The notes below the pieces were generated by a model. It was not told the DNA's origin. It ran no database searches and was given only the letters and a program-made list of their open reading frames with translations. Both the position numbers and the translations under genes were made by a program. Positions 1-20,404 of a DNA stretch of 21,206 bases are shown one piece after another. Source of the DNA: a virus; the IMG/VR virus record IMGVR_UViG_3300035698_026182, positions 1 to 21,206 of that record. One strand, 5' to 3'. The number at the start of each line of letters is the position of its first letter. Positions within the stretch are counted from its first letter, which is position 1.

Positions 1-687
1 CCAAAACTGAAGAAACATAACATTAATGTGATAAACTTGAATCCGAAATCTGCCCTCAACTGTTTCGAGAAACAAACCATTTCAACTCTGGAAAGCCGAA
101 AAAGTAACGCAATGGTAGTAAGTTTCTATACGGAAAACACAGGCTATGAGAATGAGGCGAATAGACTTGCACAATCATTGGAGTTATTCGGGATTAACTA
201 TGATATTCAGAGTGTGACGAATTTCGGTGACTGGTGGAAGAACACGAATTATAAAGCAACATTTATGCTAGAGATGCTAAGAAAGCATCCTGAGAAGAAC
301 CTCATTTGGATGGATGCAGACAGTGTGTTAAGGAGATATCCTGAACTCTTCCACACCATCGATGCAGACATAGCCGTCCACACGGTTGACTGGAAAGATT
401 ATCCCCATATTAATAAATCCAGTTCAGAAATGCTTTCCGGAACCATTTATATCAAAAACACAGAACAAATGCACGAGTTTGTACAGGAATGGATAAACCA
501 GATTAAGGCGGATAAACGGGTAATCGAGCAGGTCAATCTCAGGAGAGTAGTTGGGAGATACAAGGATAGGATTAAGGTTGTAAATTTACCTGCGGAGTAT
601 TGCACGATTTTCGACACCATGGCAACAGTAGCCGATCCAGTAGTAGAACAACTTCAAGCAAGCAGACGACTCAAGGGAACATTATGA
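1..687 (+). CDS. GT-A-type glycosyltransferase, 5' end cut by the window
   Basis: Probable nucleotide-sugar-dependent glycosyltransferase of a kind common in phage glycan clusters. The reading frame is open to base 1, so the true start may lie upstream; a GTG at 28 would give 219 residues. Numbered from that GTG, a Rossmann-like start (MVVSFYT) appears only at residue 29, followed by a D96-A-D98 motif (WMDAD) typical of metal and nucleotide-sugar binding in GT-A enzymes. An SGTIY segment lies near 137-141, and the C-terminal LPAEYC...QASRRLK segment closes the domain. Related proteins usually begin at about the MVVSFYT position, so the preceding residues suggest an N-terminal extension or the tail of another domain. 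The stop overlaps the next start (ATGA at 684-687), pointing to translational coupling. Family placement is by motif only; the sugar and acceptor are unknown. Confidence 0.75.
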   Translation, partial: PKLKKHNINVINLNPKSALNCFEKQTISTLESRKSNAMVVSFYTENTGYENEANRLAQSLELFGINYDIQSVTNFGDWWKNTNYKATFMLEMLRKHPEKNLIWMDADSVLRRYPELFHTIDADIAVHTVDWKDYPHINKSSSEMLSGTIYIKNTEQMHEFVQEWINQIKADKRVIEQVNLRRVVGRYKDRIKVVNLPAEYCTIFDTMATVADPVVEQLQASRRLKGTL

Positions 688-1814
688 AATGGGATGGAAA
701 GACACCATTAGACCAATATGATGACGGGGTGATCCTCAACAACATTCCCCTAAATCATCCAGTAATTCTTGCATCACTTAATGTAAAGAATGTGCAGAAT
801 AGTGCTTGGTGGGGGAAAGTAGATAGGATTGTGAAGGGCTTTGATCAGAGGAAATTCCAACCCATCTACTATTGTAAAAAGTGTAACTGGATTGAGAATG
901 GCGGACATAGAATTGCAGTAGCAAAAAAGCTTGAACGAAATATCATTTCAGTTCAAATACATAATTCCTGTATAAGTAACATGACTTGGGTACATTCGTA
1001 CCGGGGAAACTGGAATCCTCCGTGGGGACAAAAGCTTCCATTTGTGGATATCGTGATTCCCACCCTCGGGAGACTTGATGAACTGGAAACATGTTTGAAT
1101 CATATCTATGCTGCCCTCATTCCCCGAGTTTCCGTGCATGTTTATTTCTCTGATCTAAATGAATTGAAGAAATTCCGCAAAACTTATGGAGAAGAGGAAT
1201 GGTTGAATTACTATTTTTATGGAAAAAGTGGTAAAGACTTTAACATGACAGAATTTTGGCACATCCATATGAGGAAGATGAAAGCAGATATCATGGGGTA
1301 CTTTGTAAACGATCAGGAAATGGATAAAGATTGTATTAGATTTGCCATACATGAGTTCATGAAGTCATTTCCGGACGGTGATGGTGTTGTCGGGGTGAGC
1401 ACGATTGCTCCAGTTGATATGGAATCTTTCGGGGAAAAGTATAAAGCCGGGGACTCAATGCCACACGTTGGTTGTGCTTTCATTGGGAAGAAATTCGCTG
1501 CTCGATTCCCAAATTTCCAGTTCTTCTGCCCGGATTACTTCCACATGTTTCCAGCCCGCGATCTCCTGAAAACTGCAAAAGAGTGGGAAAGAGTGAAGTT
1601 GAGTAAGAAGTCAAAGGTGAGGCACAGGCGAATTGGCTCATTAGATAAAAAACCGGATAAAATATTTAATTCATTACGGGATAGATTCAAGAAGAACGAC
1701 TTGAAAGTGTTTAGAGCACGGGAAAAACGTGATCTCTGCTGGGGTTTAGATTGGACATTAATAAGAGAGGATGTGCTACATGAGAAAGATCGATTTAACA
1801 TTAAAGTTGTTTAG
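684..1814 (+). CDS. ParB/Srx-like domain fused to a GT2-like glycosyltransferase
   Basis: A 376-residue two-domain protein. Residues about 14-95 look like a ParB/sulfiredoxin-type fold: a PVILASL strand, then a GGHRIAVAKKL segment (73-83) matching the GHR(R/I)..A nucleotide-binding motif of ParB-like proteins. From about 119 a GT-A domain begins (VDIVIPTLGR), with NDQ (209-211) in the place of the usual DxD and a C-terminal WGLDWTLIRED motif (353-363). The start at 684 is chosen because its ATG overlaps the upstream stop (ATGA) and follows AAGGGA; an in-frame ATG at 600 would overlap the upstream gene by 88 nt and add a low-complexity Ser-rich stretch. The GT half resembles the protein at 3378-4076 along its length. 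ParB-like folds can hydrolyse CTP or phosphorylate serine, so a kinase or nucleotide-binding role is possible; chromosome partition is unlikely here. Confidence 0.72.
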   Translation: MKWDGKTPLDQYDDGVILNNIPLNHPVILASLNVKNVQNSAWWGKVDRIVKGFDQRKFQPIYYCKKCNWIENGGHRIAVAKKLERNIISVQIHNSCISNMTWVHSYRGNWNPPWGQKLPFVDIVIPTLGRLDELETCLNHIYAALIPRVSVHVYFSDLNELKKFRKTYGEEEWLNYYFYGKSGKDFNMTEFWHIHMRKMKADIMGYFVNDQEMDKDCIRFAIHEFMKSFPDGDGVVGVSTIAPVDMESFGEKYKAGDSMPHVGCAFIGKKFAARFPNFQFFCPDYFHMFPARDLLKTAKEWERVKLSKKSKVRHRRIGSLDKKPDKIFNSLRDRFKKNDLKVFRAREKRDLCWGLDWTLIREDVLHEKDRFNIKVV

Positions 1815-2409
1815 AAAGGTTATGACAGGTGTAGAATCACTGACACCGAGAGATTATGATTTACTAAACCATTCAGCCTCTAAATGGAAAACCCTGAAAC
1901 CCTTGGTAAACTGGAAAGGGAAAACCGTTGTTGATGTGGGCTGTCACGTTGGCTACATGATACTGCAAGCAAGGAAGCTTGGGGCAAAACACACAGTTGG
2001 AGTCGATTTCCGTTCTGATGTATTAAGTGTTGCAGAAGATATTGGTGGCATAAACCAAATGGACAGTGTTGTATTCAAGACTGCCTGGCTGAAAGACTTC
2101 CCAGTGGCATCATTTGACATAGTCATGTGCCTAGGTGTCCTACATAAATTTGAACCTTCTGACTACATTAAGCATTTGAAACAATTATGTGGCATGTGTA
2201 GGGAAACCCTCGTGATAGAGATGCAAGTATTACCGGGTAATAAGAAATACCTGAACGTGATTCACGAAGGCGGATTCTGGAAAACCCGCACACAGGTATC
2301 ACCAAATTGGTTAACTAATCAAATCGAGGGGAATGGTTTTGAAATAACTAACAGGATAGTATCTAAGCTATTTCCGTATCGACAAACTTGGATAGCGAGG
2401 AGAAAGTAA
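1780..2409 (+). CDS. Class I SAM-dependent methyltransferase (CmoB/Methyltransf_9-like)
   Basis: A 209-residue soluble methyltransferase. Motif I is VVDVGCHVG (50-58), motif II is near GVDFR (74-78), and a FDIVMCLGVLHK segment (112-123) corresponds to the motif after the adenine-binding region. The spacing and the MGVLYH-like segment recall CmoB and the DUF1698/Methyltransf_9 group, but nothing suggests a tRNA substrate here. Among glycosyltransferases it more likely O-methylates a sugar or glycan (inference). The ATG at 1780 is preferred over the one at 1771 because AGAGAGG sits about nine bases before it and directly abuts 1771. It overlaps the preceding gene by 35 nt and the next gene by one base (TAATG). 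Confidence 0.78.
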   Translation: MRKIDLTLKLFRKVMTGVESLTPRDYDLLNHSASKWKTLKPLVNWKGKTVVDVGCHVGYMILQARKLGAKHTVGVDFRSDVLSVAEDIGGINQMDSVVFKTAWLKDFPVASFDIVMCLGVLHKFEPSDYIKHLKQLCGMCRETLVIEMQVLPGNKKYLNVIHEGGFWKTRTQVSPNWLTNQIEGNGFEITNRIVSKLFPYRQTWIARRK

Positions 2410-3023
2410 TGAATCCACATCATCAATCTGATTATGAGTTTAAGTTGGATAATCGTGTATTTCGAGAATGTCTGCAAGCTGTCGGTCTAATTCATGGAGA
2501 TTTTGTTGAACTTGGAGTCTTCCGTGGTAACTCATTAATGGAAGTTATTAGGACAGGGAAGAATCAGGGTAAACATGTTCATGCATTCGATAGTTTTCGT
2601 GGAATGGCAGAACCGGTAAAAGAGGATATGGAGCCTGAAACCAACCATACTATATATCCAAAATGGTATTTGGATCAAGGTGGTCCTGAATACCTTATAA
2701 ATAGATTATCAAAAAGTGGTTACACTGAATCTGATTATACTATTTGGGCTGGTTTCATCCCGGAAATCTTTGGCACTGTTAAAGACAAACTTACATTCTC
2801 ATTTGCCTATGTAGATTTAGATCATTATAAACCAACAAAATATGCTCTTGAATGGGTATGGGAAAGGTTGTCACCACTCGGTCTTATGGTCTGTGACGAC
2901 TTCTTCATATCACAACTTTGGGGAACATCAACATTGGCAATTACAGAGTTCATAGAGAAACATGTAACCGAATTTGATATCGCCAGACGTACCGGTAGAA
3001 GGATTATCTTCAGAAAGAGGTAG
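2409..3023 (+). CDS. TylF/macrocin-type O-methyltransferase
   Basis: A 204-residue SAM-dependent O-methyltransferase of the TylF/MycF family, whose known members methylate sugar hydroxyls on macrolides or polysaccharides with a divalent metal. Visible signatures are FVELGVFRGNS (32-42, SAM binding), AFDSFRG (59-65), AYVDLDHY (133-140), where Asp residues probably bind metal, and VCDDF (161-165). The length is near the family norm of roughly 200-250. The start at 2409 overlaps the preceding stop by one base and follows a GAGG about eight bases upstream; an in-frame ATG at 2388 lies inside the previous gene. With its neighbours this is the second methyltransferase of the cassette, so the glycan is probably O-methylated. 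Exact substrate unknown. Confidence 0.85.
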   Translation: MNPHHQSDYEFKLDNRVFRECLQAVGLIHGDFVELGVFRGNSLMEVIRTGKNQGKHVHAFDSFRGMAEPVKEDMEPETNHTIYPKWYLDQGGPEYLINRLSKSGYTESDYTIWAGFIPEIFGTVKDKLTFSFAYVDLDHYKPTKYALEWVWERLSPLGLMVCDDFFISQLWGTSTLAITEFIEKHVTEFDIARRTGRRIIFRKR

Positions 3024-3028
3024 AAGTT

Positions 3029-3388
3029 ATGAAACGTGAAAAGAAAGTTTGGGGTCACACGACAGAACTTTTCCGGAACAACACGACATCCACGCATTAC
3101 ATTGAAATCGATGAAGGAGGATACTGTTCAGAGCATAAACATGCTCAAAAAACTAATGTATTCTATATAATTGAGGGCATACTTGAAGTAACTATCTGGG
3201 ATGATGCAGGAAATTACGTAGTCGAGTTGAGACCTGATGCCGGTTACGTTAATACACTACATATACGATTCGGGCAATGGCATAAGTTTCATGCTGTAAC
3301 AGATGTGAAATGCATCGAGATATACGAATATCTTTATGATGGTGTTGACATTGAGAGACGTAAAGAGGGAGGGATGGATGAAAATTGA
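3029..3388 (+). CDS. Single-domain cupin protein
   Basis: A 119-residue small beta-barrel protein. Cupin motif 1 is EHKHAQKTNVFYIIEG, with H36 and H38; the usual Glu ligand position carries N43. Motif 2 is FGQWHKFHA, with H85. Cupins of this size beside glycosyltransferases are often sugar-phosphate or nucleotide-sugar isomerases/epimerases, or sugar-sensing proteins. The missing Glu leaves open whether this one binds a metal. The start is supported by GAAAGAGG eight bases upstream and a five-base gap after the previous stop. Its last 11 bases overlap the next glycosyltransferase gene. Fold call is fairly safe; function is inference. Confidence 0.75.
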   Translation: MKREKKVWGHTTELFRNNTTSTHYIEIDEGGYCSEHKHAQKTNVFYIIEGILEVTIWDDAGNYVVELRPDAGYVNTLHIRFGQWHKFHAVTDVKCIEIYEYLYDGVDIERRKEGGMDEN

Positions 3389-4076
3389 CATTGTAATTCC
3401 AAGTCACAATAGACCAACAAAACTTAAAAAATGTTTGAATTCAATAATGGGAAATATGGTAAGTAAATGTACAGTTTATGTGTACTTTTCAAGTAAATTC
3501 GATATGCAATTTACTGTTATGAAATATGGTACACATCCATGGTTGAAGTACCGACTTTATGAACCTGAGTTTCACGCCGCAGAGTTCTGGAACTCTCACT
3601 TGAAAACTTGTGATGCTGACATTTTCATGTATCTCACTGATGACGTTCAGCTTCATCCGGGATGCCTGAGTACTGCCCGAACACGTTATCTACTGAACTT
3701 TCCCAATTTTGATGGAGTCTTAGGACTTAATCAGGCAAACTTTCCCCCAAACGTTAAAGCAGCACAAGGGGCATTTGGCATGATCGGGAAGAATTATTTT
3801 AATCAGTTTCCGGATAATGCCGTCTTCTGCCAAGACTTCTATTGTATGTATGTGGATAGTGAGATGGAGTTACTTGCAAGAAAGCACAACAGATTCTACT
3901 TTAGTCAGGAGGCAAAGTTGGATCATTTTCATCCGGCAGTAAATCCATCCTACATGGATGAAACGAATAAACACATTAGAAGATTTCAGGGAAAGGATGA
4001 TAAAGTGTGGAAGGAAAGAAGGAGAAGGGGTTTGCTCTGGGGAAATGATTTTGAACTTATAAGGGACACACTATAA
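3378..4076 (+). CDS. GT2-like glycosyltransferase, paralogue of the 684-1814 GT domain
   Basis: A 232-residue GT-A protein. It opens with MKIDIVIPSHNRP, the classical first strand, and carries YLTDDVQ (85-91) as the likely metal/nucleotide-sugar motif, LDHFHP (181-186), and a terminal WGNDFELIRD (221-230). The order VDIVIP, CLNxI, VYFS, EFW, DI, NFP, WGxDxxLIR is shared with the C-terminal domain of the gene at 684, so the two are probably an old duplication; this copy lacks the ParB-like domain. The ATG at 3378 lies in a purine-rich AGAGGGAGGGATGG context and is preferred to an in-frame ATG at 3336, which would overlap the cupin gene more. The end overlaps the next start by one base (TAATG). 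Confidence 0.8.
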   Translation: MKIDIVIPSHNRPTKLKKCLNSIMGNMVSKCTVYVYFSSKFDMQFTVMKYGTHPWLKYRLYEPEFHAAEFWNSHLKTCDADIFMYLTDDVQLHPGCLSTARTRYLLNFPNFDGVLGLNQANFPPNVKAAQGAFGMIGKNYFNQFPDNAVFCQDFYCMYVDSEMELLARKHNRFYFSQEAKLDHFHPAVNPSYMDETNKHIRRFQGKDDKVWKERRRRGLLWGNDFELIRDTL

Positions 4077-4843
4077 TGTATTTTACTATTGTCATGCCAA
4101 CGCGGGACAGACTTGATTTATTGTATAATACAATCTGTAGTATCCGGGATACTGCGAAAAACCTAAACTCATTCGAACTAATCATCATTGCTGATATCGA
4201 TGACGTTAGAACCCAAGATGCAATAGCAAGTTGGTGGGGACAGTTTAATGGGATGAATATACGTTTCCTAATCCGTGAGAGAAGCCAAAACATCTCACAT
4301 GATTACTATAACTGGGTATTCCTGAATAAGTCACCAGTCACTCCACAGGGAAAAGTTTTCTGGGTAATCGGGAATGACGTGGTATTCCTAACACCAGACT
4401 GGGATGAACTGGCAAGAACCTCAATTGAGAACTACCTGAAGAAACGCCCTGACCGAATCCTTTATGCTTTCCCAAAAGATATTTCGCGGAATAAACCTCA
4501 CCTTTCTGAATTCAACTGGGGGTGGTTTCCTATATTAACACGTGAAACAGTGAAAGCATTGAACTATTTCATGCCGGAACAATATCCTTCTTGGGGAGCA
4601 GATGTTCTTCTTGGGACAATTTTTAGTAATAAGGAAGTTAATCGGTCATTAGAACTCCCAATCCAACTTGACCATATCTGTTATCATTCATATAAAAACA
4701 TCAAACAGGATCATCTGGGGAAGAGGATGTCAGATCATTTTAATAAATTAGAGCAACGCCAGCTAAGAAACGGTTTTAGCGCCTGGGGAATTCCATTGGC
4801 AATTAATAATTTGAAGGAGGCAATACATGGAATGGTCAAATAA
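4076..4843 (+). CDS. GT2-like glycosyltransferase
   Basis: A 255-residue GT-A glycosyltransferase. It begins MYFTIVMPTRDR, followed by an ELIIIADIDD strand, and has IGNDVVFLTPDW (98-109) in the position where GT2 enzymes place the DxD-like motif. It is more distant from the two neighbouring GTs and lacks their terminal WGxDxxLIR signature; it may belong to a separate subfamily. No membrane helix is visible, so it should act in the cytosol. It starts with ATG overlapping the previous stop (TAATG), with AAGGGA upstream, and its 3' end overlaps the radical SAM gene by 17 nt. Donor and acceptor cannot be read from sequence. Confidence 0.78.
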   Translation: MYFTIVMPTRDRLDLLYNTICSIRDTAKNLNSFELIIIADIDDVRTQDAIASWWGQFNGMNIRFLIRERSQNISHDYYNWVFLNKSPVTPQGKVFWVIGNDVVFLTPDWDELARTSIENYLKKRPDRILYAFPKDISRNKPHLSEFNWGWFPILTRETVKALNYFMPEQYPSWGADVLLGTIFSNKEVNRSLELPIQLDHICYHSYKNIKQDHLGKRMSDHFNKLEQRQLRNGFSAWGIPLAINNLKEAIHGMVK

Positions 4844-5912
4844 GAATAAGTTTAATAGTTTCAACTCTTGGAAAGGTTTACTTTATGCGGACTGGTATAA
4901 AGGGATTGTAAAGGGTAAATTTCACCCACCGGTCGAAGCCTCCCTTGATCCAATTCATGCCTGTAATCTCAAATGCCAACACTGTAATGCCCATAGATAT
5001 ATGAAAGGGAAAACTCCTGACCGTATGACAAATGCCCATCTAATCAACCTTGTCCAGTTCCTCGGTGATTGGGGAGTGAAGGCAATATGTTTCGGCGGTG
5101 GAGGTGAACCCACCCTCCATTCAGAATTGAAAACTGCAATAATTGAAACCAGAAAATCAGGGATGGAAGCAAGTATTGCAACAAACGGAACAAAGCTAAA
5201 TGGTAACTTCCTCGATGTAATTCCACTCCTACGTTGGATCGGTGTATCCGTGGATGCCGCTACACCAGAAACATATAAGAAATTGAAAGGTGTGGATAGA
5301 TTCCGGGATGTAATCGGGAATCTCATACGGGTGAGTAAGGATTCGGGTAACTGTGATGTTTCTTACAAATTCCTAATTTCCTCCCTTAACCAACATGAGG
5401 TATATGATGCGTGTAAGTTGGCAAAAGAAATCGGTGTCCGGGATTTCCATGCTCGCCCTATGGATTTTCATCATCAGGGTATGGGGAAAGAGCTAGATGG
5501 AAAACTTGCAAATGTAAATATAGATCTCGTCCTTGAACAAATGGAAAAATGTCATGAACTAGAGGATGAGAATTTCCGGGTCTTCACGGTAATACATAAA
5601 TTCAATAAAGACTTCCTATCAGATAAGAGTTTTTCACAATGCTTCGGCGCCCCCTTAGTTATTCAGTTGTGTGCAGACGGGAATGTTTATTTTTGTGTGG
5701 ATCAACGCCATCAGAAAGATTTCATCCTCGGACAGCATTTCCCAAACCCAAAAAATATCCTAACGTTCTGGGGAAAAGAAAGACATCAGGAACTCGTGTT
5801 CGGGGATACCCCGGAAAAATGTTTCACCCGTTGCACATTTGGTGTCTACTGTGAACAATGTGAGAAGTTGTTCTGGGATAACGAGGATCCGATGTGTTGG
5901 AGGTTTATATGA
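4827..5912 (+). CDS. Radical SAM/SPASM enzyme
   Basis: A 361-residue radical SAM protein. The 4Fe-4S/SAM motif is CNLKCQHC (C46, C50, C53; CX3CX2C) and the SAM-binding glycine-rich segment is GGGGEPTLH (90-98). A C-terminal Cys-rich region (C272, C282, C290, C332, C336, C342, C345, C357) has the spacing of a SPASM/twitch domain that binds auxiliary clusters. SPASM enzymes act on peptides (cross-links, heme-like cofactor precursors) or on small molecules such as aminoglycoside-type sugars, where they dehydrogenate or epimerise. No short precursor-peptide gene is seen nearby, so a sugar or glycan substrate fits the neighbours better (inference). A strong AAGGAGG lies six bases before the ATG. 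It overlaps the next cupin gene (ATGA). Confidence 0.88.
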   Translation: MEWSNKNKFNSFNSWKGLLYADWYKGIVKGKFHPPVEASLDPIHACNLKCQHCNAHRYMKGKTPDRMTNAHLINLVQFLGDWGVKAICFGGGGEPTLHSELKTAIIETRKSGMEASIATNGTKLNGNFLDVIPLLRWIGVSVDAATPETYKKLKGVDRFRDVIGNLIRVSKDSGNCDVSYKFLISSLNQHEVYDACKLAKEIGVRDFHARPMDFHHQGMGKELDGKLANVNIDLVLEQMEKCHELEDENFRVFTVIHKFNKDFLSDKSFSQCFGAPLVIQLCADGNVYFCVDQRHQKDFILGQHFPNPKNILTFWGKERHQELVFGDTPEKCFTRCTFGVYCEQCEKLFWDNEDPMCWRFI

Positions 5913-6223
5913 AAGTTGTAGAAAAGCGTTGGGGATGTGAGATTTGGTGGGCGAATACAAGATATTATCTTGGGAAGCTACTTGTAATAAAACCAAATAT
6001 GTGTACAAGTCTTCATGTTCATAAGGAAAAGGATGAAACGATGTACGTGCTTCATGGAGGGTTGGAAACAAAGGGGGATGTAGGAAATAAGTTATACGCG
6101 GCAGGTGGAGTGTTACGGATTCTGCCATTCCAAACACACAGGTTAATTGCTGGACCAGAGGGACTTACATTAATTGAAGTGAGTACCCCGCATCCGGAAG
6201 ACAGTATGAGGGTAGAATTATGA
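5909..6223 (+). CDS. Cupin of sugar-phosphate isomerase type
   Basis: A 104-residue single cupin. The start KRWGCEIWW...YYLGKLLVIKP resembles the cupin of type II mannose-6-phosphate isomerase/GDP-mannose pyrophosphorylase proteins, which begin WGyE and bind metal. Motif 1 is complete (H36-V-H38-xxxx-E43), and motif 2 supplies H77 in LPFQTHRL, so four metal ligands are present, unlike the cupin at 3029. A ketose/aldose or epimerase reaction on a sugar phosphate is plausible. The ATG at 5909 sits inside the previous stop (ATGA) with GGAGG about five bases upstream, favoured over an ATG at 5894 inside the radical SAM gene. Its own stop overlaps the next start (ATGA). Confidence 0.78.
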   Translation: MKVVEKRWGCEIWWANTRYYLGKLLVIKPNMCTSLHVHKEKDETMYVLHGGLETKGDVGNKLYAAGGVLRILPFQTHRLIAGPEGLTLIEVSTPHPEDSMRVEL

Positions 6224-6597
6224 AACGAGATGCAGGTGATATTGTTGACCGGTTTGCAATTGCAACGTTGAAACTGGTAAATATATGTAAAGAAGAAAGC
6301 TGGTTAGAATATGTAATGTTCTCAAATGGTTTCATGGATTTATGTGAGAGGCATCCGAAAAGCAATCTAACTAACTATCTCTATAAGATGATTCTGATTA
6401 ATCGTGAAATCTGGAATTTAGAATCCGATGTTCGACAGGGGGCACTCGATAATGACCCGACCGAAGTTGGAAAACGTGCAATTAGGATTCGAGGGAAAAA
6501 TAGTATCAGGATAAATATAAAGAACGAAATTAATAAACTTGTTGGGGAAGGAGTACAGGATGTCAGGAGAAACCACCTTAGCCAAATTGAAGAGTAA
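6220..6597 (+). CDS. Small conserved-looking protein of unknown function
   Basis: A 125-residue, probably all-helical soluble protein. Its start (AGDIVDRFAIATLKL) and its end (EVGKRAIRIRGKNSIRINIKNEI) have the look of small helical proteins seen in polysaccharide and phage glycan clusters, loosely like DUF6165, but I cannot assign a family firmly. There is no catalytic motif, signal peptide or membrane segment. It is bound tightly into the operon: its ATG overlaps the preceding stop (ATGA) and its last 38 bases overlap the transketolase gene. It may be an accessory subunit of one of the enzymes beside it; that is a guess from position. Confidence 0.65.
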   Translation: MKRDAGDIVDRFAIATLKLVNICKEESWLEYVMFSNGFMDLCERHPKSNLTNYLYKMILINREIWNLESDVRQGALDNDPTEVGKRAIRIRGKNSIRINIKNEINKLVGEGVQDVRRNHLSQIEE

Positions 6598-7384
6598 AGC
6601 TAATCAAATCCGGAAAGACGTGTTGGAGATGTGCAGTCAGGCAGGCACGGGACACGTCAATAGCAGTTATTCTATAGTAGAAATACTCGTAGCACTTTAT
6701 CATGGAGGAATACTTAATCATGACCCAAAAAATCCGGACAAAGATTCCCGTGATAGATTCATCCTCTCTAAGGGACAAGCAAGTCCAGTCCTCTATTGCG
6801 TCCTCGCCGATGTGGGTTATTATCCACGAGACTGGTGTGACGGCTTTAATGCAGATGGCGGGAAATTTGCTGTTCATCTCCAACATACAGTACCCGGAGT
6901 AGAACTGACCACAGGTTCACTTGGACACGGGCTCGGTGTTGCAGCAGGAATGGCTCACGGGTTAAAGCTGAAACGTGAACTTCCCTTTGTGTTCTGCATC
7001 ATCGGGGACGCCGAATGTTATGAAGGAAGTATCTGGGAAACCGCTGCCTTCGCCTCCCATAATCGATTGAATAACTTAGTTGTTTTCCTCGACCGTAACT
7101 GCCTCGGCGCCACAGATTTCACAGAGAATGCCTGTTCACTGGAGGATTTTGAAGCAAAATGGGATGCATTCGGCTGGGATACAGTTCGAATTGACGGTCA
7201 TTCATTTGTGGAACTTGCCCAAGTTCTTCATAATGTAAAAGGAAGATCTTCCACGCAACCTCTCATGATTATTTGTGACACGATAAAGGGAAAAGGGATA
7301 GAGGAATTAACGAATGCTCCACTCTGGCATTCAAAGACACCAACTGGTGAACAGGCTAAACAAGCAATGGAGGAATTATCATGA
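6560..7384 (+). CDS. Transketolase, N-terminal (TPP-binding) subunit
   Basis: A 274-residue homologue of the N-terminal half of transketolase, as found in split enzymes. It should bind the diphosphate of thiamine diphosphate and Mg. Visible motifs: AGTGHVNSS (28-36), PGVELTTGSLGHG (112-124), the TPP motif from GDAECYEG (149-156) to DRN (178-180), DTIKGKGI (240-247) and H257. GDA replaces GDG. In the segment normally written SKGHA the His is Gln (Q73), a position close to substrate in transketolases. The start at 6560 has AAGGAG six bases upstream and matches the usual N-terminal helix, although it overlaps the previous gene by 38 nt. The C-terminal partner follows directly (ATGA overlap). It may transfer a two-carbon unit in making an unusual ketose or branched sugar. 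Confidence 0.9.
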   Translation: MSGETTLAKLKSKANQIRKDVLEMCSQAGTGHVNSSYSIVEILVALYHGGILNHDPKNPDKDSRDRFILSKGQASPVLYCVLADVGYYPRDWCDGFNADGGKFAVHLQHTVPGVELTTGSLGHGLGVAAGMAHGLKLKRELPFVFCIIGDAECYEGSIWETAAFASHNRLNNLVVFLDRNCLGATDFTENACSLEDFEAKWDAFGWDTVRIDGHSFVELAQVLHNVKGRSSTQPLMIICDTIKGKGIEELTNAPLWHSKTPTGEQAKQAMEELS

Positions 7385-8268
7385 CAATGCGAGATGCGTT
7401 CTTTCACAGTATAGTAAATCGAGCATCGATGGGGAATAAACTTGTTATTGTAACCGCGGATATGTCTGCACCTGCCCTCGATGATTTTCGAACAAATTAT
7501 CCACATCGTTACATTAATGTTGGAATAGCTGAACAATCCATGATCCTCACAGCATGTGGACTTGCAAACGAAGGTTTCATTCCAGTCTGTTATGCCATAC
7601 AACCGTTTGCTTCATTAAGGTGTTATGAACAGATTAAGGTGATAGCAGCCCTCATGAATATCCCAATTATGATAGTAGGTGTGGGAGCCGGATTCAGTTA
7701 TGAGGATAGCGGTCCCACTCATCATGCCCTGGAGGATTTGGCAATTATGAGAATCCTCCCAAACATGACAGTTTGGAATCCCTCAAGTAATCATTTGGCT
7801 GTACGGATAGCTGATGAAGTTGGGAAAGGATTGATGTATGTAAGATTGGATAGGAAGGATCTCCCAGAAATTTATCCAAAACCAAATGATTTGAACTTTG
7901 ACTCTATCAGCCATTTCGCAGATGGATTTGATGTATCTAAATGGTCAGGTTGTCATCAATGGATTGTTTCAACAGGTAACATGGTGCATACAGCACTTGA
8001 AGTAACAAAGGAAACTGATGTTGGAGTAATTGATGTGTTTAAGTTTCCTTTTGATGAAAGCAAATTTAGAAATGTGATAGGCGATGAGGATTTTGTAATT
8101 GTTGAGGAAAACAATTCTCGTGGTGGATTAGCTGCAGCAGTGTACGAAGCACTTAATAAGAAACACCGCGGCGTTCCAAGTTACGATTACGTTTATGGTG
8201 GTAGAGGAAACATTCAAAAGTTCTATGGTTTAGATAAGGAGGGAATCACAAAATGGTTATCGGATTAA
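7381..8268 (+). CDS. Transketolase, C-terminal (pyrimidine-binding) subunit
   Basis: A 295-residue homologue of the Pyr plus C-terminal domains of transketolase. It carries the catalytic glutamate of the TPP pyrimidine site in NVGIAEQ (E51), FASLRCYEQIK (76-86), and the SYEDSGPTHHALEDLA segment (106-121). This complements the N-terminal subunit encoded just upstream, and the two should form a heterotetramer as in other split transketolases. The ATG overlaps the upstream TGA, giving coupled translation and equal amounts. The length is usual for this subunit. Both halves keep their cofactor motifs, so an active enzyme is likely. Split transketolases are normally chromosomal; finding both in a phage late region is unusual. 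Confidence 0.9.
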   Translation: MTMRDAFFHSIVNRASMGNKLVIVTADMSAPALDDFRTNYPHRYINVGIAEQSMILTACGLANEGFIPVCYAIQPFASLRCYEQIKVIAALMNIPIMIVGVGAGFSYEDSGPTHHALEDLAIMRILPNMTVWNPSSNHLAVRIADEVGKGLMYVRLDRKDLPEIYPKPNDLNFDSISHFADGFDVSKWSGCHQWIVSTGNMVHTALEVTKETDVGVIDVFKFPFDESKFRNVIGDEDFVIVEENNSRGGLAAAVYEALNKKHRGVPSYDYVYGGRGNIQKFYGLDKEGITKWLSD

Positions 8269-9470
8269 TTCGACCAGATAGCAAAATGCAGAACTATCAA
8301 AACCTCACATCATTATCTGCAATAGAACCTCCTCATTGGATGGCATGTAGAGTTAAAGATCTTCAACGGCTACATGATGACGTGATAATCTGGGATGCAC
8401 AAGTAGATGAAGTTAGTCCAGACATGTCAGGGTGTGATGAAATTGAAATCTGGGCAACCGGAGTCCACCCGTCCGCTTGGATTCAGGAACAGGCAGGGGT
8501 AGATAGGCTCAAATTAAAAACAACGAATGTAACCATAATTGACCATTTACCCTTTGATGCAAAAAAGGTTTCCCCGGACTGGTCACTTTTCAACATGAAT
8601 AAGTACCATGCTCATAACTGGCAAACTTGGGGAAGCAAACAAACGTTAGCTCCATACGGAACTGTCCATACTTCCGTTTCATGCCCATATAAATGCAAGT
8701 TTTGTACCATCCACAGTTATTATGGAACAAAGTACGCTACACGCTACATTGAATCCGTTGTAAATGACCTGAATGTTTTATCTAATTCAGGAGTGAAGAA
8801 TGTCAAGGTGATGGATGAACTCTTCCTTACAAAGAAATCTGGTGACCTTCTGAAAGCAATAATAAACGAAACGGAAAATAATTTTAACATTTGGGGTTAT
8901 TCTCGCGTAGATACACTTCCAGATAATTTGGGCATTGTAAAGACTGCTGGAGTTAATTGGATTTGTCTTGGCATTGAATCCGGAAACCAAGAAATCCGAC
9001 AATCCATGAATAAAGGTAAATTCACAAATGAAGATATTCGTAACTCGGTAACGCGACTGAAGGATGCTGGAATCTCTGTCCTTGGTAACTTCATGTTTGG
9101 TTTCCCAGATGACACATTCTCTACTATGCAGGAAACCCTAGACCTTGCAATAGAGTTAAATTGTGAATATAGTAATTTCTATTGTGTAGTGCCCTATCCT
9201 GGAACAGAGTTGGAAAGTTATGCAAAAGAACAGAAATGGGAATTACCGAAAGAACCATCACAGTACGCTCAATACTCTTATGACTTCCTACCTCTCCCAA
9301 CAAAATACTTAACCGCAAAGGAAGTATTGAAGTTCCGTGACACTGCTTGGTTGAAATATCACAAAAACACGGAATACCTGCAAATGGTTCTCAGGAAATT
9401 CGGAATGGATGTGTTGAAGGAAATCAATGAAATGACAAGCAGGAAATTGGAGAGGAAATTATTGCCTTGA
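8253..9470 (+). CDS. Radical SAM enzyme with B12-binding-like N-terminus
   Basis: A 405-residue radical SAM protein. The first 100 residues resemble the Rossmann B12-binding domain of the B12-dependent class (LSAIEPPHWMA at 21-31, VIIWDA at 44-49), but no DxHxxG cobalamin-ligating motif is present, so it may be degenerate. The cluster motif is CPYKCKFC (C144, C148, C151). After it come a VKVMDELF segment, ICLGIESGN, and NFMFGFPDDT, typical of this superfamily. Many relatives methylate unactivated carbons or rearrange sugars and lipids; the precise reaction cannot be told. SD AAGGAGGG lies about nine bases before the ATG, and the gene overlaps the transketolase gene by 16 nt. It ends overlapping the TTG of the next gene. 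Confidence 0.85.
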   Translation: MVIGLIRPDSKMQNYQNLTSLSAIEPPHWMACRVKDLQRLHDDVIIWDAQVDEVSPDMSGCDEIEIWATGVHPSAWIQEQAGVDRLKLKTTNVTIIDHLPFDAKKVSPDWSLFNMNKYHAHNWQTWGSKQTLAPYGTVHTSVSCPYKCKFCTIHSYYGTKYATRYIESVVNDLNVLSNSGVKNVKVMDELFLTKKSGDLLKAIINETENNFNIWGYSRVDTLPDNLGIVKTAGVNWICLGIESGNQEIRQSMNKGKFTNEDIRNSVTRLKDAGISVLGNFMFGFPDDTFSTMQETLDLAIELNCEYSNFYCVVPYPGTELESYAKEQKWELPKEPSQYAQYSYDFLPLPTKYLTAKEVLKFRDTAWLKYHKNTEYLQMVLRKFGMDVLKEINEMTSRKLERKLLP

Positions 9471-10153
9471 TTCGTTTAACTGAAAAGATCGCCGGTAGAA
9501 CCGTTTGCATCCTCCTCCATGGAGCCTCTATAAAGGGTATTCCGGAACATGCATTGAATGGAAAAGACTGGTGTTATGTGTCACTAAATGATTTCATGTT
9601 TGTTGAAGCCCTGATGAAGAAAGAACTCGAAGTTGTTCTCATAACAAGTGAAGTGGAAATCGTGCGAAAGTGTGTTGATGTTGCTGTATTCTTAGACAGG
9701 AATCCAACAAATCTATTTATCACAACAACTTGGGCACTCGGGGCATTAATGGAAAAAAGTAATGGATTTGTCAAGAAATACCGGAATCAGATAATCCTGG
9801 TTCCACGTCCTCCATTCCTCCCAATTAAGGATAATGTTGCACGACCGAATTCCGTGACTATCCTTTTCCTTACTCTTGCAGATGCCGGTGTGAAGAAAAT
9901 CGTGGTACTGGGCATGGATGGATGTGAATATGGGAAGTCAATAGTGGAACAAAAACGGACTTATATAAATCAGGAATTATTTGATTCACATGGAAACAGG
10001 AAGACGGCAATAATGATAGATACTATGGTGTTCAATAAACATTTTCCAGAGTTATTTAAGGGAAAGAACTGTGAAATCCTGAACTGTTCTCCGGGATCCC
10101 ACATAACCGTTATCCCTCAAATAACACACGAGTGTTTGACAGAAATGTCTTGA
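9467..10153 (+). CDS. DUF115/MAF-like glycosylation protein (tentative)
   Basis: A 228-residue soluble protein, last in the cassette. It has a Rossmann-like start, AGRTVCILLHGASI (9-22), a central KKIVVLGMDG (143-152), and a C-terminal NCSPGSHITVIPQIT (206-220). This layout recalls DUF115 proteins: the motility accessory factors that transfer nonulosonic acids onto flagellin in the cytoplasm, and the MptE-like pyrophosphokinases. GT42-type sialyltransferases share the fold, so assignment stays tentative. The start is a TTG at 9467 overlapping the previous TGA, with GAGAGGA about ten bases upstream; no ATG is better placed. Its stop codon is shared with the -35 box of the promoter at 10150. 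Confidence 0.55.
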   Translation: MIRLTEKIAGRTVCILLHGASIKGIPEHALNGKDWCYVSLNDFMFVEALMKKELEVVLITSEVEIVRKCVDVAVFLDRNPTNLFITTTWALGALMEKSNGFVKKYRNQIILVPRPPFLPIKDNVARPNSVTILFLTLADAGVKKIVVLGMDGCEYGKSIVEQKRTYINQELFDSHGNRKTAIMIDTMVFNKHFPELFKGKNCEILNCSPGSHITVIPQITHECLTEMS

Positions 10154-10197: not shown

Positions 10198-10662
10198 ATG
10201 GCATTGGCAGTTGGAACAAATAGTTGGGTAACTGAGGCAGAGGCAAATCTTTACTTCGATGACCGCGTTGGAATAACTGATTACTGGGTAGATGATGCAG
10301 ATGAAAATCCCCGTGCACTTATCACGTCATATAAGGAACTGAATAACTGTGGGAAATACTCATTTCCCGTCGTGGCAACCCAAGTGATGAAGGATGCCCA
10401 ATGTGAATATTCCCTCCACTTACTCATCCATACACCCGATCGGGCAATCCGGGAAGGCATACAAGCACAAAGGGTTGTGAAGGCAGGGATTGTAAAGGAA
10501 GAGTATCATCGAGAGGGTAAAGGGATAATTATTCCGCCCTTGGTCGCAAGCCTCCTTTCCACCTATGAACTTGAGAAACCTTTCCACATTTTCGATATTG
10601 AACGGGATGAGGAGCAGAAAACAGATTATAATGCACCGGGTAATTTAGATAGAGATGTATAA
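10198..10662 (+). CDS. DnaT-like phage head/neck protein
   Basis: A 154-residue protein opening LAVGTNSWVTEAEANLYFDDR, the signature of a phage family listed under the name putative DnaT-like ssDNA-binding protein. Those genes sit between capsid and neck genes, so a head-tail connector or head-completion role is more likely than replication. The middle (about 40-110) is helical with a conserved-looking VMKDAQCEYSLHLL stretch. It is the first gene after the promoter at 10150, with GAGGA eight bases before its ATG, and opens the structural module. It is of usual length for the family. Confidence 0.72.
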   Translation: MALAVGTNSWVTEAEANLYFDDRVGITDYWVDDADENPRALITSYKELNNCGKYSFPVVATQVMKDAQCEYSLHLLIHTPDRAIREGIQAQRVVKAGIVKEEYHREGKGIIIPPLVASLLSTYELEKPFHIFDIERDEEQKTDYNAPGNLDRDV

Positions 10663-10674: not shown

Positions 10675-11013
10675 ATGATAAATGCACAAGATTATTTTCT
10701 AACACGATTAATTGACCTTGGTGGACTCCGAACAGGAAGTGCCGAAGTTGTAAAGACGATGTATTGCAGGGATGTGTACCTATCTTTCGGGAAAGCAGCA
10801 GGTGGAAATGACGTATTGGTGATTGAGGGAAGTCTCGACAACACGGAAGACTCCTACGATAACCTTGATGCAAACGATGAAAACGTCACCCCGACAACGG
10901 GGAAAACAACATTGTATCTCTTAGAGGGATTTCTACCACCCTATGTCAGGATTCGGAAAGTCTCCGGGGAAAATCAGATTGCAATTAAGTTGTACATTGG
11001 AGGGGTATCATGA
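10675..11013 (+). CDS. Small virion-type beta protein, function unknown
   Basis: A 112-residue protein without a family I can name. The VLVIEGSLDNTEDSYDNLDAN segment (about 43-64) and the closing PYVRIRKVSGENQIAIKLYIGG look like a beta-sandwich of the kind found in small capsid decoration or accessory virion proteins. Position between the DnaT-like gene and the neck genes supports a structural role (inference). AAAAGGAG lies six bases before the start. The stop overlaps the next ATG (ATGA), so the two are probably made together. Confidence 0.65.
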   Translation: MINAQDYFLTRLIDLGGLRTGSAEVVKTMYCRDVYLSFGKAAGGNDVLVIEGSLDNTEDSYDNLDANDENVTPTTGKTTLYLLEGFLPPYVRIRKVSGENQIAIKLYIGGVS

Positions 11014-11582
11014 AAGACCTAAAAGATACAACTGATGTAGCACAAATCACGGCATTGAATGATCTATCTGTAGCACAGGTGAGGGAACAGGATGATGCTT
11101 CTCTTGTTGCCTACAATGCAGCTAATGGAACAGAACTTGCAGTAGTGGACACGAATGTGGACGAGCTTCTAGTCGAGGAACAACACATCACGTCTATATT
11201 CCCAGAGGACTCAGATGAGACTGTGACATTGGTAGCCGGTACGCCTGCTAATACATGGAGTGCATGGGCACGTATAGTGGATAATATGCTAGGGTATTTG
11301 GATGATAACGCAGCTACAATGAATATGCACATATCCACCATTATGGTAGAGGACTCTTCAGTAAAAGACAAGATATATATGTTAGAGATTGCATACGGGT
11401 CGGCACATACGGTGGTGTCGAGACAACGGTATATGGCACAGAACACTAAGGTTGGGACAGTCCAACAGGCGAAGGTCAGGGCGGAACATATACCTGTCGG
11501 GGAGCTAATATATTATCGTGCTAAATGTGAAACGGCAAGTGCCACAGTACAGGTACATTTCCGTTATCACACACACGCGTAA
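11010..11582 (+). CDS. Putative virion structural protein
   Basis: A 190-residue protein. The first 60 residues are polar and probably helical (KDTTDVAQITALNDLSVAQV). The rest appears as a beta domain that begins SIFPEDSDETVTL near residue 62 and ends in VPVGE-like and VHFRYHTHA segments. Similar layouts occur in phage head-accessory or fibre-type proteins, with an N-terminal attachment part and a C-terminal beta domain, but I cannot name a family. It is coupled to the preceding gene by ATGA. No enzyme motif or membrane segment is visible. Confidence 0.65.
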   Translation: MKDLKDTTDVAQITALNDLSVAQVREQDDASLVAYNAANGTELAVVDTNVDELLVEEQHITSIFPEDSDETVTLVAGTPANTWSAWARIVDNMLGYLDDNAATMNMHISTIMVEDSSVKDKIYMLEIAYGSAHTVVSRQRYMAQNTKVGTVQQAKVRAEHIPVGELIYYRAKCETASATVQVHFRYHTHA

Positions 11583-11592
11583 GGGATGAATT

Positions 11593-11745
11593 ATGCCAAC
11601 GCCAAGAGAGGGAGAAGGAAAACAGAAATTCATATCACGTTGCATCCCTTACCTTTTTCACCGCGAGGGAGAAAAGGATAAAGGGCATGCTTGGCAAAAA
11701 TGTAATGGGATATACGAGCAATGGTTGAAGAGGAGAAGGAAATGA
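11593..11745 (+). CDS. 50-residue phage protein with SRC...C pattern
   Basis: A short frame beginning MPTPREGEGKQKFISRC and ending KCNGIYEQWLKRRRK. The layout (Pro/Glu-rich start, F-I-S-R-C, then an H and a second Cys before an aromatic) matches a small motif known in phages both as a stand-alone protein and as a tail on capsid-protease or portal-region proteins. C17 and C37 with nearby His residues could bind a metal. Support for a real gene: AAGGGATGAA before the ATG, a start ten bases after the previous stop, and an ATGA overlap with the head-closure gene that follows. Function unknown. Confidence 0.75.
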   Translation: MPTPREGEGKQKFISRCIPYLFHREGEKDKGHAWQKCNGIYEQWLKRRRK

Positions 11746-12077
11746 TTGGACCATACCTGATAAACTCTATTACACTTAAACAGTTCAAAGGGGAAGATGA
11801 ATGGGGAACACCTAAAGATCGAACAAGTGTAACCGTGAAATCGAGGATTGATTATAAAAATCGACAAGTAGAGAATGAAGCAGGTGAGCTCGTTGTGAGT
11901 AAGGCAAAGGTGTTCATGCGACCAAGAACGATTACTCGAACAGGTTTTGCATTAAGAGCCACGAACACGATTGCATATGAAGACCTAATCACGGATGACG
12001 GAATCGACCATGCCATAATTCTAATTGGGAAAGCACAAGATTTCTCAGTTAGATTCCTGGAGGTATATATTGCATGA
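11742..12077 (+). CDS. Head-closure/head-tail joining protein (putative)
   Basis: A 111-residue, mainly beta protein. The run VKSRIDYKNRQVENEAGELVVSKAKVFM is typical of small head-closure (stopper) and minor capsid proteins of siphoviruses, which cap the connector after packaging and give the tail its docking surface. The start at 11742 overlaps the previous TGA (ATGA) and follows AGAGGAGAAGGAA; an in-frame ATG at 11721 would overlap the previous gene further. The next gene overlaps by ATGA. Order with the gp10-like and terminator genes supports the neck assignment. Confidence 0.68.
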   Translation: MIGPYLINSITLKQFKGEDEWGTPKDRTSVTVKSRIDYKNRQVENEAGELVVSKAKVFMRPRTITRTGFALRATNTIAYEDLITDDGIDHAIILIGKAQDFSVRFLEVYIA

Positions 12078-12514
12078 ATTTTTACCTTGATACAAAAGAT
12101 TTTGACCGTAAATTTACCAACTTCATGGATAACAAATCCAAAACTGCCCTTAGGGAAGGGTTAGGGAAAGCCGGAGAAGCCTTGATGAATGATATAAATT
12201 GGGAAGAACCAAAAGCTCCTGAACTCACATCTGCACTCCGCTCTGCCATAAGTGTATTTGTGAATAAGTTTCTCCGAAAAACATCTATCGCTCTCCGGAA
12301 ACCCGACCTGTCTCCAGACCCAAAACTGAAACCTCTTCGCTCTTGGATGGAAACGATACCACCGAACACGGAACAGGCAGCAGTGGTGGTGAATGTACCG
12401 TATGCAGCTTTCCAACATGCAACGTATCATAAAGGTTATATGAGTAAGAAGTTATACAGTAATGCACGGAAATACTTAAAGATTATCTCTGATGAAATAA
12501 AGAAGGTTAGATGA
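12074..12514 (+). CDS. HK97 gp10-like neck/tail-completion protein
   Basis: A 146-residue protein. An N-terminal helix (FDRKFTNFMDNKSKTALREGLGKAG) leads into a beta domain with AAVVVNVPYAAFQHATY (about 102-118), the V-N-V-P-Y-A-x-x-Q-H signature of the HK97 gp10/tail-completion family. A basic helix ends the chain. These proteins sit at the head-tail interface. Overlaps by ATGA at both ends place it in one translational unit with the head-closure and tail-terminator genes. Length is normal for the family. Confidence 0.8.
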   Translation: MNFYLDTKDFDRKFTNFMDNKSKTALREGLGKAGEALMNDINWEEPKAPELTSALRSAISVFVNKFLRKTSIALRKPDLSPDPKLKPLRSWMETIPPNTEQAAVVVNVPYAAFQHATYHKGYMSKKLYSNARKYLKIISDEIKKVR

Positions 12515-12921
12515 TTAAGGAATTAACAAAATACATAGATAATAATTTAGCAACCCTCACCCTTGGAACCAATTTATTCGCTGGTAAGATCCCCCCGAGT
12601 GTCGAGGGACAAGCTGTTGTAGTAGAACGTAGTGACCCGGGACTCAGAAGTGCCTCTCATGGTTTACTTGACACTGGACAAACCCCCTTTAACATTATTG
12701 TTCGGGGTGCCATGGGTGCAGGTTATCCTACTCCTGAAGCCTTAGTCAATTCAATCTTCACATTCCTTCACGGAAAAACACAAGTAGAGTTACCCGTGGC
12801 CGGGTCTGGAGTAACGTACCTCGTGAATATAGGTTGTAATGACCCCTACTATATTGGCGTGGATGATAAGAAACGTGATTCATTCATTTTACCTGTAATG
12901 GTCACGCGAGCAGAAAATTAA
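12511..12921 (+). CDS. Tail terminator / minor capsid protein (putative)
   Basis: A 136-residue alpha/beta protein. An N-terminal helix (IKELTKYIDNNL) is followed by AVVVERSDPG, FNIIVRGAMGAGYPTPEALVNSIFTFLHG and a C-terminal strand ILPVMVTRAEN. This matches the tail-terminator/minor-capsid group, in which the ring formed ends the tail tube and joins the neck. It lies in the expected place, between the gp10-like gene and the tube gene, and starts in an ATGA overlap. Sequence conservation is low in this family, so the call rests on layout and order. Confidence 0.7.
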   Translation: MIKELTKYIDNNLATLTLGTNLFAGKIPPSVEGQAVVVERSDPGLRSASHGLLDTGQTPFNIIVRGAMGAGYPTPEALVNSIFTFLHGKTQVELPVAGSGVTYLVNIGCNDPYYIGVDDKKRDSFILPVMVTRAEN

Positions 12922-12938
12922 TAGAAGGAGTATAAATT

Positions 12939-13460
12939 ATGGCACTTGGACCATTAGGCGACATAGGACCATGCCAAATTTACTGGAATAGCACGGTAAT
13001 CACTTCCCTGCTTGAAGGTGGGGCAACTTTCCGCTTTACCGGGGGAGTATCTCCCGATGTGAAAGAGGCGGAATTCGGAAATACCCCACTCGATGGTATC
13101 TTTACTGGTTATGAACAGGTTGAGTTCGAAGCACCATTTACCCGACTCACTTATGCAAATCTGGCAAAGATAATCCCCGGTGGAAGTAATTCAGGTGGTG
13201 AAAGTGGTAATGTTGCAGTATTCGCTCATATCATTGTGGGTGCAAGTTTAGTATCCCTGGCATCGGAACTAATAGTGAAAAGGATTGTAAATGGCGTTAT
13301 AGATACCAGTCGGAAATACTGGTTACACATTCCACTTGCATACCCGATTCCACAATTCGACATTCCATACAACCTCAATGATCAGCGAGGCTTTATGGTC
13401 TTATTCAAATGTTATGCCAATGAAACAACTGGTTTAGTATGGCACGTTGGCGATCACTAA
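12939..13460 (+). CDS. Major tail tube protein
   Basis: A 173-residue beta-rich protein beginning MALGPLGDIGPCQIYW. The GVSPDVKEAEFGNTPLDG segment (about 36-53) and EQVEFEAPFTRLT are typical of tail tube subunits: an early strand pair, an exposed loop, then a beta barrel. It follows the terminator and precedes the chaperone pair, the usual siphovirus order. AGAAGGAG lies about nine bases upstream of the ATG, a good site as expected for an abundant virion protein, and the gene does not overlap its neighbours, unlike most here. Confidence 0.8.
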   Translation: MALGPLGDIGPCQIYWNSTVITSLLEGGATFRFTGGVSPDVKEAEFGNTPLDGIFTGYEQVEFEAPFTRLTYANLAKIIPGGSNSGGESGNVAVFAHIIVGASLVSLASELIVKRIVNGVIDTSRKYWLHIPLAYPIPQFDIPYNLNDQRGFMVLFKCYANETTGLVWHVGDH

Positions 13461-13474
13461 GATAGGAGGCAGTA

Positions 13475-13789
13475 ATGCCAAAAATGAACATTGATGAACT
13501 CACGGAAAAAGTGTTTGAACCCATTGAGTTTACCCTTGATGGGAAAGACTACAAAATCACAACACTACCATCTGAAGCACTCGACACAATTATGGATGCA
13601 ACGGAAAACCCGTCAAAAATCCGCGGTTCATTTGCTCAATTGATTGGTGGGAATGAAAAGGATTTCAAGAAAACTGATTTCCGGAAACTCGTTGCTGCCG
13701 CGGGGTTTATAATGAACGCTGTCCGAGATCAGATTCAGTCATACCAATCAAAAAACGTGCAAGGGGAAGATGTAACCCAGAAAGTGTAA
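13475..13789 (+). CDS. Tail assembly chaperone (gpG-like)
   Basis: A 104-residue product read without frameshifting. The N-terminal FEPIEFTLDGKDYKITTLPSEALDTIMDA is typical of G-type chaperones, which coat the tape measure and recruit tube subunits. Codons 92-94 are TCA AAA AAC, a slippery site; a -1 shift there bypasses the TAA at 13787 and joins the frame at 13756-14040, giving a GT fusion of 188 residues. AGGAGG lies upstream of the start. Position between tube and tape-measure genes is the standard one for G/GT. Confidence 0.85.
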   Translation: MPKMNIDELTEKVFEPIEFTLDGKDYKITTLPSEALDTIMDATENPSKIRGSFAQLIGGNEKDFKKTDFRKLVAAAGFIMNAVRDQIQSYQSKNVQGEDVTQKV

Positions 13790-13819
13790 TTGCCAACACC
13801 TTCCCTGGTCGGTTTACAT
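13750..13819 (+). promoter_or_regulatory. -1 programmed frameshift signal with candidate stem/pseudoknot
   Basis: The heptamer A_AAA_AAC (13750-13756) lies in the zero frame of the chaperone gene and is a canonical X_XXY_YYZ slippery sequence. Six bases later GGGAAG (13764-13769) can pair with CTTCCC (13800-13805), extendable by a G-U pair. The adjoining ATGTAA (13770-13775) is the exact complement of TTACAT (13814-13819). The strand order makes this a pseudoknot if both stems form, although there is no linker between the two 5' strands, so they may instead alternate. Pairing was found by eye; no energy was calculated. Confidence 0.82.
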
Positions 13820-14040: not shown

Positions 14041-14048
14041 AAAAGGTA

Positions 14049-16496: not shown

Positions 16497-16505
16497 AGGA
16501 GAATC

Positions 16506-20396: not shown

Positions 20397-20404
20397 GAGG
20401 TGGC

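Follow-up and report, generated by a model that had tools for sequence, protein, structure and literature searches.

What does a phage do with a sugar-building pathway that lies directly beside its structural genes? The question is raised by a viral contig of 21,206 nucleotides, which was analysed in its entirety and is called the window below. Few cases of phage virion glycosylation are known, and the locus is considered here with respect to its gene content, its position in related phages and the possible acceptor of its product.

A sugar-building cassette in a structural operon

Gene calls and profile searches of the window reveal a sugar-building cassette of 14 genes at positions 1-10153, all on the + strand. 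A sequence-only reading had described it as overlapping same-strand genes, and all 14 are present at that place: of its 13 internal junctions, 12 are overlaps of 1-44 bases and one is a gap of 5 bp. The end of the cassette is separated by 44 bp from the start of the head-tail adaptor gene s15 (10198-10662, + strand; phrog_477, 1.9e-4), which forms the right border of the island here and in relatives. Connector, neck, tail terminator, tail tube, tape measure (TMP) and tail tip J genes follow on the + strand (10675-20866), confirming the phage structural neighbourhood claimed earlier. The cassette encodes four glycosyltransferase-like proteins, two methyltransferases, two cupins, two radical SAM enzymes, a split transketolase, a DUF4254 relative and a sialyltransferase/Maf-like protein. 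Family matches, some of them weak, bear out the transferases, methyltransferases, cupins, radical SAM enzymes and transketolase halves of the sequence-only reading.

The earlier call of the first gene is amended. The window is the whole contig, and its left end cuts g01 (1-687; PF03407, 1.1e-6). What remains of this gene, the C-terminal half of a fusion of GT42/MptE-like and Nucleotid_trans domains, is 44-46% identical to the C-terminal halves of proteins of 490-501 aa in the relatives L003 and L004. The full-length counterparts in relatives (~490-518 aa) consist of a GT42/MptE-like and a nucleotide-sugar transferase domain and directly follow the presumptive major capsid protein (MCP) gene; therefore, the cassette represents one defined locus, from the MCP to the adaptor. 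The GT42 motifs were examined in relatives, as the window's own copy of that domain is cut off. The family profile A5 can be aligned with both motifs of the Cst-I/II sialyltransferases (E about 1e-3), and the motifs GxGPSLK and SG..LA.aLG.k.iYL.G.D are found in its alignment to Cst-II. The gathering score of the MptE-like (Maf_flag10) family PF01973 is not reached (27.8 bits for L004 against a cutoff of 34.6, E 2.5e-6), and the structural matches of the domain's AF2 model are weak, sialyltransferases coming after thiamin pyrophosphokinase. A possible docking peptide of ILTISDL-like repeats ahead of the GT42 domain was rejected as a general feature, being present in 13 of 71 proteins.

The last gene, g14 (9467-10153), had been labelled DUF115-like, and this label holds weakly. 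It has no Pfam match, and the predicted fold of its AF2 model is close to Cst-I (2p2v, the best Foldseek match, prob 0.99), Cst-II and Maf (5mu5, prob 0.90). Its identity to proteins of L004, L005 and L030 is 33-37%. The profile comparison of the GT42 and g14 families reached a probability of 20% only, so the kinship of both families rests on fold matches.

Between these two genes lie the remaining transferases and the modifying enzymes. The product of g02 (684-1814) combines an N-terminal domain, in which a ParB/Srx-like 'GGHRIAVA' motif was recognised by eye, with a glycosyltransferase domain; it has no Pfam match, and its homology to g06 spans residues 121-364. Both g06 (3378-4076; PF00535, weak at 4.5e-4) and g07 (4076-4843; PF00535, weak at 0.011) are GT2-like glycosyltransferases conserved in relatives. 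The methyltransferases are the SAM-dependent g03 (1771-2409; PF08003, 2e-13) and the TylF-like O-methyltransferase g04 (2406-3023; PF05711, 5.8e-11). The cupins are the WbuC-like g05 (3029-3388; PF07883, 2.1e-6; TIGR04366, 1.1e-8, below cutoff) and the small g09 (5909-6223; phrog_7851, 8.5e-15; PF07883, weak at 0.0066). The DUF4254-related g10 (6220-6597) has no convincing PDB match, and PF14063 is matched by 5 of the 7 members of its family (best 1.4e-5).

Enzymes that may act on the carbon skeleton

Two radical SAM enzymes with the CxxxCxxC motif are encoded. The first, g08 (4827-5912; PF04055, 1.6e-17), is the most conserved gene of the core, with 64-71% identity to its relatives in L004 and L003. 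The second, g13 (8253-9470; PF04055, 6.6e-19), is of a B12-dependent-like type, its best NCBIfam match being PhpK (8.6e-30, below cutoff) and its PDB match AprD4 (6fd2). The transketolase is divided between g11 (6560-7384; Transketolase_N PF00456, 1.2e-33), with the ThDP-site motif GDA...LDRN, and g12 (7381-8268; Transket_pyr PF02779, 4.8e-26; Transketolase_C PF02780, 6.8e-9), with the GIAEQ motif. As in the split-chain transketolase 6yak, the best PDB match of g11 (2.4e-59), the N- and C-terminal chains are separate and ThDP motifs are present; unlike 6yak, g11 and g12 are viral and lie inside a putative glycosylation island.

No g08 relatives were found when 84,980 prokaryote genomes were scanned by motifs with the g08 profile; the scan needs exact peptide patterns and may overlook distant ones. 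No close cassette is present in the annotated phage collection: g08 gives weak radical SAM matches, and g13 matches Streptomyces phage SF3 only. Transketolase matches in that collection were set aside, as the records were unrelated or bacterial-looking. A viral sugar pathway with a split transketolase and two radical SAM enzymes points to uncharacterised sugar chemistry. In two relatives, L003 and L005, the presence of NeuB (1.4e-72 and 4.9e-80) and a CMP-sugar synthetase (cytidylyltransferase) points to nonulosonic-acid chemistry; Pfam searches found neither in the window.

A fixed position with variable contents

Five more divergent phage contigs share the core with little change in gene order and with protein identities of 41-71%; some of these contigs are truncated or have reading frames that are broken in part. 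The common arrangement of the core is MCP, GT42-Nucleotid_trans, methyltransferase and glycosyltransferase genes, radical SAM, in some cases a cupin, DUF4254-like, transketolase N, transketolase C, radical SAM, and finally g14 or NeuB-NeuA. This recurrence excludes chance as the origin of the cassette, and the gene-order check suggested by the sequence-only reading finds the genes in order, not scattered.

The presumptive MCP is assigned from the order TerL-portal-decoration-MCP and from weak matches (phrog_24071, function unknown); its sequence matches nothing in the PDB. With this protein as the sole anchor of a scan, a GT42-like gene is found in 55 of the 61 scorable lineages (90%), always first or second after the MCP, with a median gap of 75 bp. 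The GT42 and MCP distances correlate (Mantel 0.29, 0/2000 permutations). The island behind the MCP measures 1.4 to 14 kb (14.3 kb in L005), and its sugar genes, which include GT2, methyltransferases, NDP-sugar epimerases and LicD, differ widely between lineages, while the first gene is nearly invariant. Empty versions of the locus occur in two lineages, with 100 and 327 bp instead of the island, and 34 bp separate the MCP homologue of the distant relative MACPNOA1 from the start of the next annotated gene. In SU10-type phages, which are unrelated, a related module adjoins the capsid or portal genes; in the SU10-type podophage contig L011, relatives of the radical SAM gene and of g10 follow the SU10 MCP. 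The literature searched contains no description of an MCP-adaptor sugar island.

Virus particle or host surface

The cassette is probably a virion-glycosylation island of a large, uncultured lineage of siphophages, in which it takes up the locus from MCP to adaptor. The sequence-only reading had inferred a modified sugar made and attached either to a virion protein or to the host surface; the glycan cassette in a structural operon stands, and of the two targets the virion is favoured. Four observations argue for it: the fixed MCP-adaptor position, the GT42/Maf-like gene beside the MCP in most lineages, the lack of membrane and lipid-carrier proteins in the window cassette, and the SU10-type module.

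The strongest competing explanation, although unlikely, is remodelling of the host surface (O-antigen or capsule conversion) that excludes competing phages, the late-operon place serving expression timing only. DUF4254, WbuC-like cupins, TylF and NDP-sugar epimerases, all present in the cassette or the islands, are typical of surface polysaccharide loci. Serotype-converting gtr cassettes are likewise phage genes that alter glycans, but the window cassette is without their membrane flippase and bactoprenol/lipid-carrier transferase. By transmembrane check and Pfam, no flippase, bactoprenol glucosyltransferase or other lipid-linked transferase, or polymerase is recognisable in it; its sole 19-aa segment over 1.9 lies in the transketolase core, and no transmembrane protein is encoded. 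Wzx, Wzy and Gtr families are also missing from the 25 commonest Pfam families of the island unknowns. Attachment to a virion protein within the cytoplasm therefore fits better, and serotype conversion is ranked low because these membrane proteins are lacking. Nor is a late structural position with near-invariant MCP adjacency expected for serotype conversion.

Decoration of a tail or receptor-binding protein instead of the capsid appears less likely still. It would agree with the right borders of the islands, which are neck and tail genes, and with the tail-region cluster of the Caulobacter jumbo phage CcrColossus, where a tail-protein gene precedes a GT42-like gene (annotated alpha-2,3-sialyltransferase; 32% identity across 35% of the query) and genes for an NDP-sugar transferase, a methyltransferase and a GT9. 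This cluster resembles the island in its genes and its structural neighbour, but it is small, adjoins a tail gene and has no annotated transketolase or radical SAM enzyme. In the window's lineage the GT42-like gene tracks the MCP, not the tail genes, and related genes follow the MCP in L011 as well. Taken by itself, the place beside the MCP might mean no more than that insertions are tolerated there. A mere landing place for auxiliary metabolic genes of host origin, without a particle-related role, would suit the widely differing contents; it is very improbable given the near-invariant first gene, the core identity between distant phages and the motif-based prokaryote scan, in which no relative of g08 was found.

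For virion glycosylation, we infer the protein activities, the sequence of steps, the sugar and its acceptor; the cassette most likely builds an unusual sugar and attaches it to the virus particle. Its proteins would act in the cytoplasm while heads are being assembled. One unusual sugar may have its carbon skeleton or stereochemistry altered by the split transketolase, both radical SAM enzymes and the cupins. Transfer of the sugar would fall to the first protein and the Maf-like g14, with hydroxyl groups on a virion protein as acceptors; the likeliest such protein is the MCP, whose gene lies just upstream. The glycan could be extended by g02, g06 and g07 and capped by the methyltransferases.

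Relation to known systems and the capsid as a glycan carrier

PMC11256854 relates that mycobacteriophages Che8 and Rita carry a glycan covalently on the major capsid protein, with phage-encoded glycosyltransferases (Freeman et al. 2023, as cited there), and that in the related phage Maravista such genes are located near the genome's 3′ end. The glycosyltransferases of the window are also encoded in the phage genome. In contrast to these phages, its lineage has transferases directly behind the MCP, headed by a GT42/Maf-like protein, and transketolase and radical SAM genes may join them. A second likeness is to the Maf/GT42 (MptE-like, PF01973) flagellin glycosyltransferases, and it lies in the Cst-I/II motifs, in the match between the g14 model and Maf 5mu5, in the NeuB and CMP-sugar synthetase that some relatives encode, and in a gene adjoining that of a very abundant self-assembling protein. 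The first protein of the island differs in being a two-domain fusion with Nucleotid_trans, where Maf has three domains; it also has a capsid gene as neighbour and scores below the Pfam cutoff.

It is possible, though somewhat short of probable, that the whole tailed-phage lineage coats its capsid in flagellin style (Maf/GT42) with nonulosonic-acid-like or carbon-rearranged sugars, the transferase gene being fixed by the capsid gene and the sugar genes exchanged between lineages. With such a coating, virus particles would vary in glycan type as bacteria vary in O-antigen; virion glycosylation would become a lineage trait, with a testable model of capsid glycan variation. The fixed capsid-adjacent locus, with its near-invariant GT42/Maf-like gene and variable island, is found in dozens of uncultured lineages.

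Gene content of the cassette

The window is the full record of the viral contig (21,206 bases), and positions 1-10153 are taken up by fourteen plus-strand genes (g01–g14), with 12 of the 13 junctions overlapping. These are followed 3′ by the genes of the adaptor, connector, neck, tail tube, tape measure, and tail tip. The gene list proposed by the sequence-only reading was borne out when families were assigned by Pfam, PHROGs, NCBIfam, and gene-to-gene homology. It comprises four glycosyltransferase-like proteins (g01, g02, g06, and g07, with weak GT2 signals), two methyltransferases (g03, g04), two cupins (g05, g09), two radical SAM proteins (g08, g13), the N and C halves of a transketolase (g11, g12), and a DUF115/GT42-like protein (g14). 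The single unknown of that reading, g10, is DUF4254-related in five of seven family members. The cassette proteins are soluble enzymes only, and the catalytic motifs are intact in the transketolase and radical SAM genes.

The first gene is cut by the contig end. Its counterpart in the related phage contigs L003 and L004 (490-501 aa) combines an N-terminal GT42/MptE-like domain with a C-terminal Nucleotid_trans domain and lies directly 3′ of a 340-350 aa protein, the presumptive major capsid protein (MCP). Because of this placement, the cassette fills the MCP-to-adaptor interval, and what the window is missing of gene 1 is probably limited to the first ~255 residues. The MCP assignment is positional, following the order TerL, portal, decoration protein, presumptive MCP, adaptor. 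PHROG 24071, the family of this protein, is of unknown function; a single weak match lies on the capsid side, and sequence comparison with the PDB gave no match.

The MCP-anchored locus

A locus scan anchored on the MCP, independent of the sugar genes, covered 69 lineages at 95% MCP identity, of which 61 were scorable, either because the island was closed or because the contig ran on for at least 1.2 kb past the MCP. The GT42-like gene is present in 55 of these. It ranks first after the MCP in 50 and second in nine, short contigs included, at a median gap of 75 bp. Closed islands in this set span 1.4 to 9.4 kb; the L004 and L005 islands, which were scored from other loci, extend to 11.0 and 14.3 kb. 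The simplest islands (L058, L052) carry a single GT42-fusion gene, and that of L021 carries a single protein of 1021 aa in which GT42, two Nucleotid_trans, methyltransferase, and GT29-sialyltransferase-like segments are combined. L080 and L094 have no island, with 327 and 100 bp in its place, and the distantly related Microcystis phage MACPNOA1 has no sugar gene in the interval from the MCP homologue to the next annotated gene. For 96 island proteins that otherwise had no label, the families seen most often are GT2, methyltransferases, NAD-dependent sugar epimerases, and LicD. MCP and GT42 distances are correlated (Mantel Spearman 0.29, 0/2000 permutations), which is consistent with co-inheritance plus exchange.

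Capsid glycosylation is reported as established in mycobacteriophages Che8 and Rita (PMC11256854). The fixed MCP-adjacent locus headed by a GT42/Maf-like gene, its spread over dozens of lineages, and its transketolase/radical SAM content are new; no description of such an island was found in the literature searched.

The conserved core and a prophage-like member

The same core lies between MCP and adaptor in L004 (10.96 kb) and recurs with local changes in L003, L005, L006, and L009; the L003 and L009 contigs stop within the island, and the L006 frames near the transketolase N half are partly broken. L002 is the same virus as the window on another contig (100%). Protein identities to relatives are 64-71% for g08, 49-64% for g11, and 47-53% for g13. 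NeuB and a cytidylyltransferase are additional in L003 and L005. On the MCP tree, transketolase-bearing islands group within a single 23-row section. At least three changes are needed there, which would fit a single gain followed by losses as well as two or three gains.

In its 14015-16137 stretch, the L005 island also holds a right-handed beta-helix protein and, just 5′ of the adaptor, a 66% homologue of the window's last gene (at 20878). A ParB/Srx-like domain, recognized by eye from a GGHRIAVA motif, is joined to a glycosyltransferase in the window (684-1035), a cupin in L004 (4929-5630), and a methyltransferase in L009 (7546-8535): a single domain reshuffled across sugar enzymes of three kinds.

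A Candidatus Aminicenantes MAG (G001) contains one lineage member (L166-L168) at about 353-389 kb of a contig 415 kb long (C30:353000-389000), with carbamoyltransferase, tRNA-Arg, peptidase S9, and NAD(P)H-hydrate dehydratase genes on its flanks. From this setting, the lineage appears to include at least one prophage of that group. A second copy lies on contig C10.

Resemblance to Cst and Maf enzymes

For the SIALYLTRANSFERASE link, the GT42-like family profile aligns with Cst-I and Cst-II of C. jejuni at the motifs GxGPSLK and SG..LA.ALG..IYL.G.D (E 0.001-0.004). In the AF2 model of g14 (pLDDT 72), Cst-I is closest, and Cst-II and Maf 5mu5 are also matched. The GT42 domain model (pLDDT 75) is less clear, as thiamin pyrophosphokinase ranks first and sialyltransferases lower. 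Maf enzymes use CMP-activated nonulosonic acids to O-glycosylate flagellin and have a central domain similar to Cst-II (PMC11339370). Caulobacter phages encode distant homologues whose annotation is alpha-2,3-sialyltransferase; in CcrColossus, the order is tail-protein gene, GT42-like gene, then NDP-sugar transferase, methyltransferase, and GT9. A low-confidence N-terminal arm ahead of the GT42 domain carries ILTISDL/LSMSDL-like repeats, one to three per protein, in 13 of the 71 proteins (L018:8807-10075, L030:11122-13239, L054, and others), a possible docking peptide.

Proposed function

The biochemical function proposed for the island is inferred. The split transketolase and radical SAM enzymes would alter the sugar skeleton, methyl groups would cap the sugar, and it would be transferred in the cytoplasm to a virion protein, most likely the MCP. 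A second line of support comes from two SU10-type podophage contigs. In L011 (5879-11306), relatives of g08 and g10 lie 3′ of the MCP, and in L014 (8683-16140), relatives of g13, g08, and g10, together with a two-part ThDP enzyme, immediately precede the portal. Thus, unrelated phages keep the radical SAM/g10 module near capsid genes, an arrangement that would favor modification of a virion protein. On a different phage contig (L180:5203-12735), a g13 homologue (41%) belongs to an operon that also encodes GT-like proteins, another radical SAM protein, and a protein resembling NDP-sugar epimerases.
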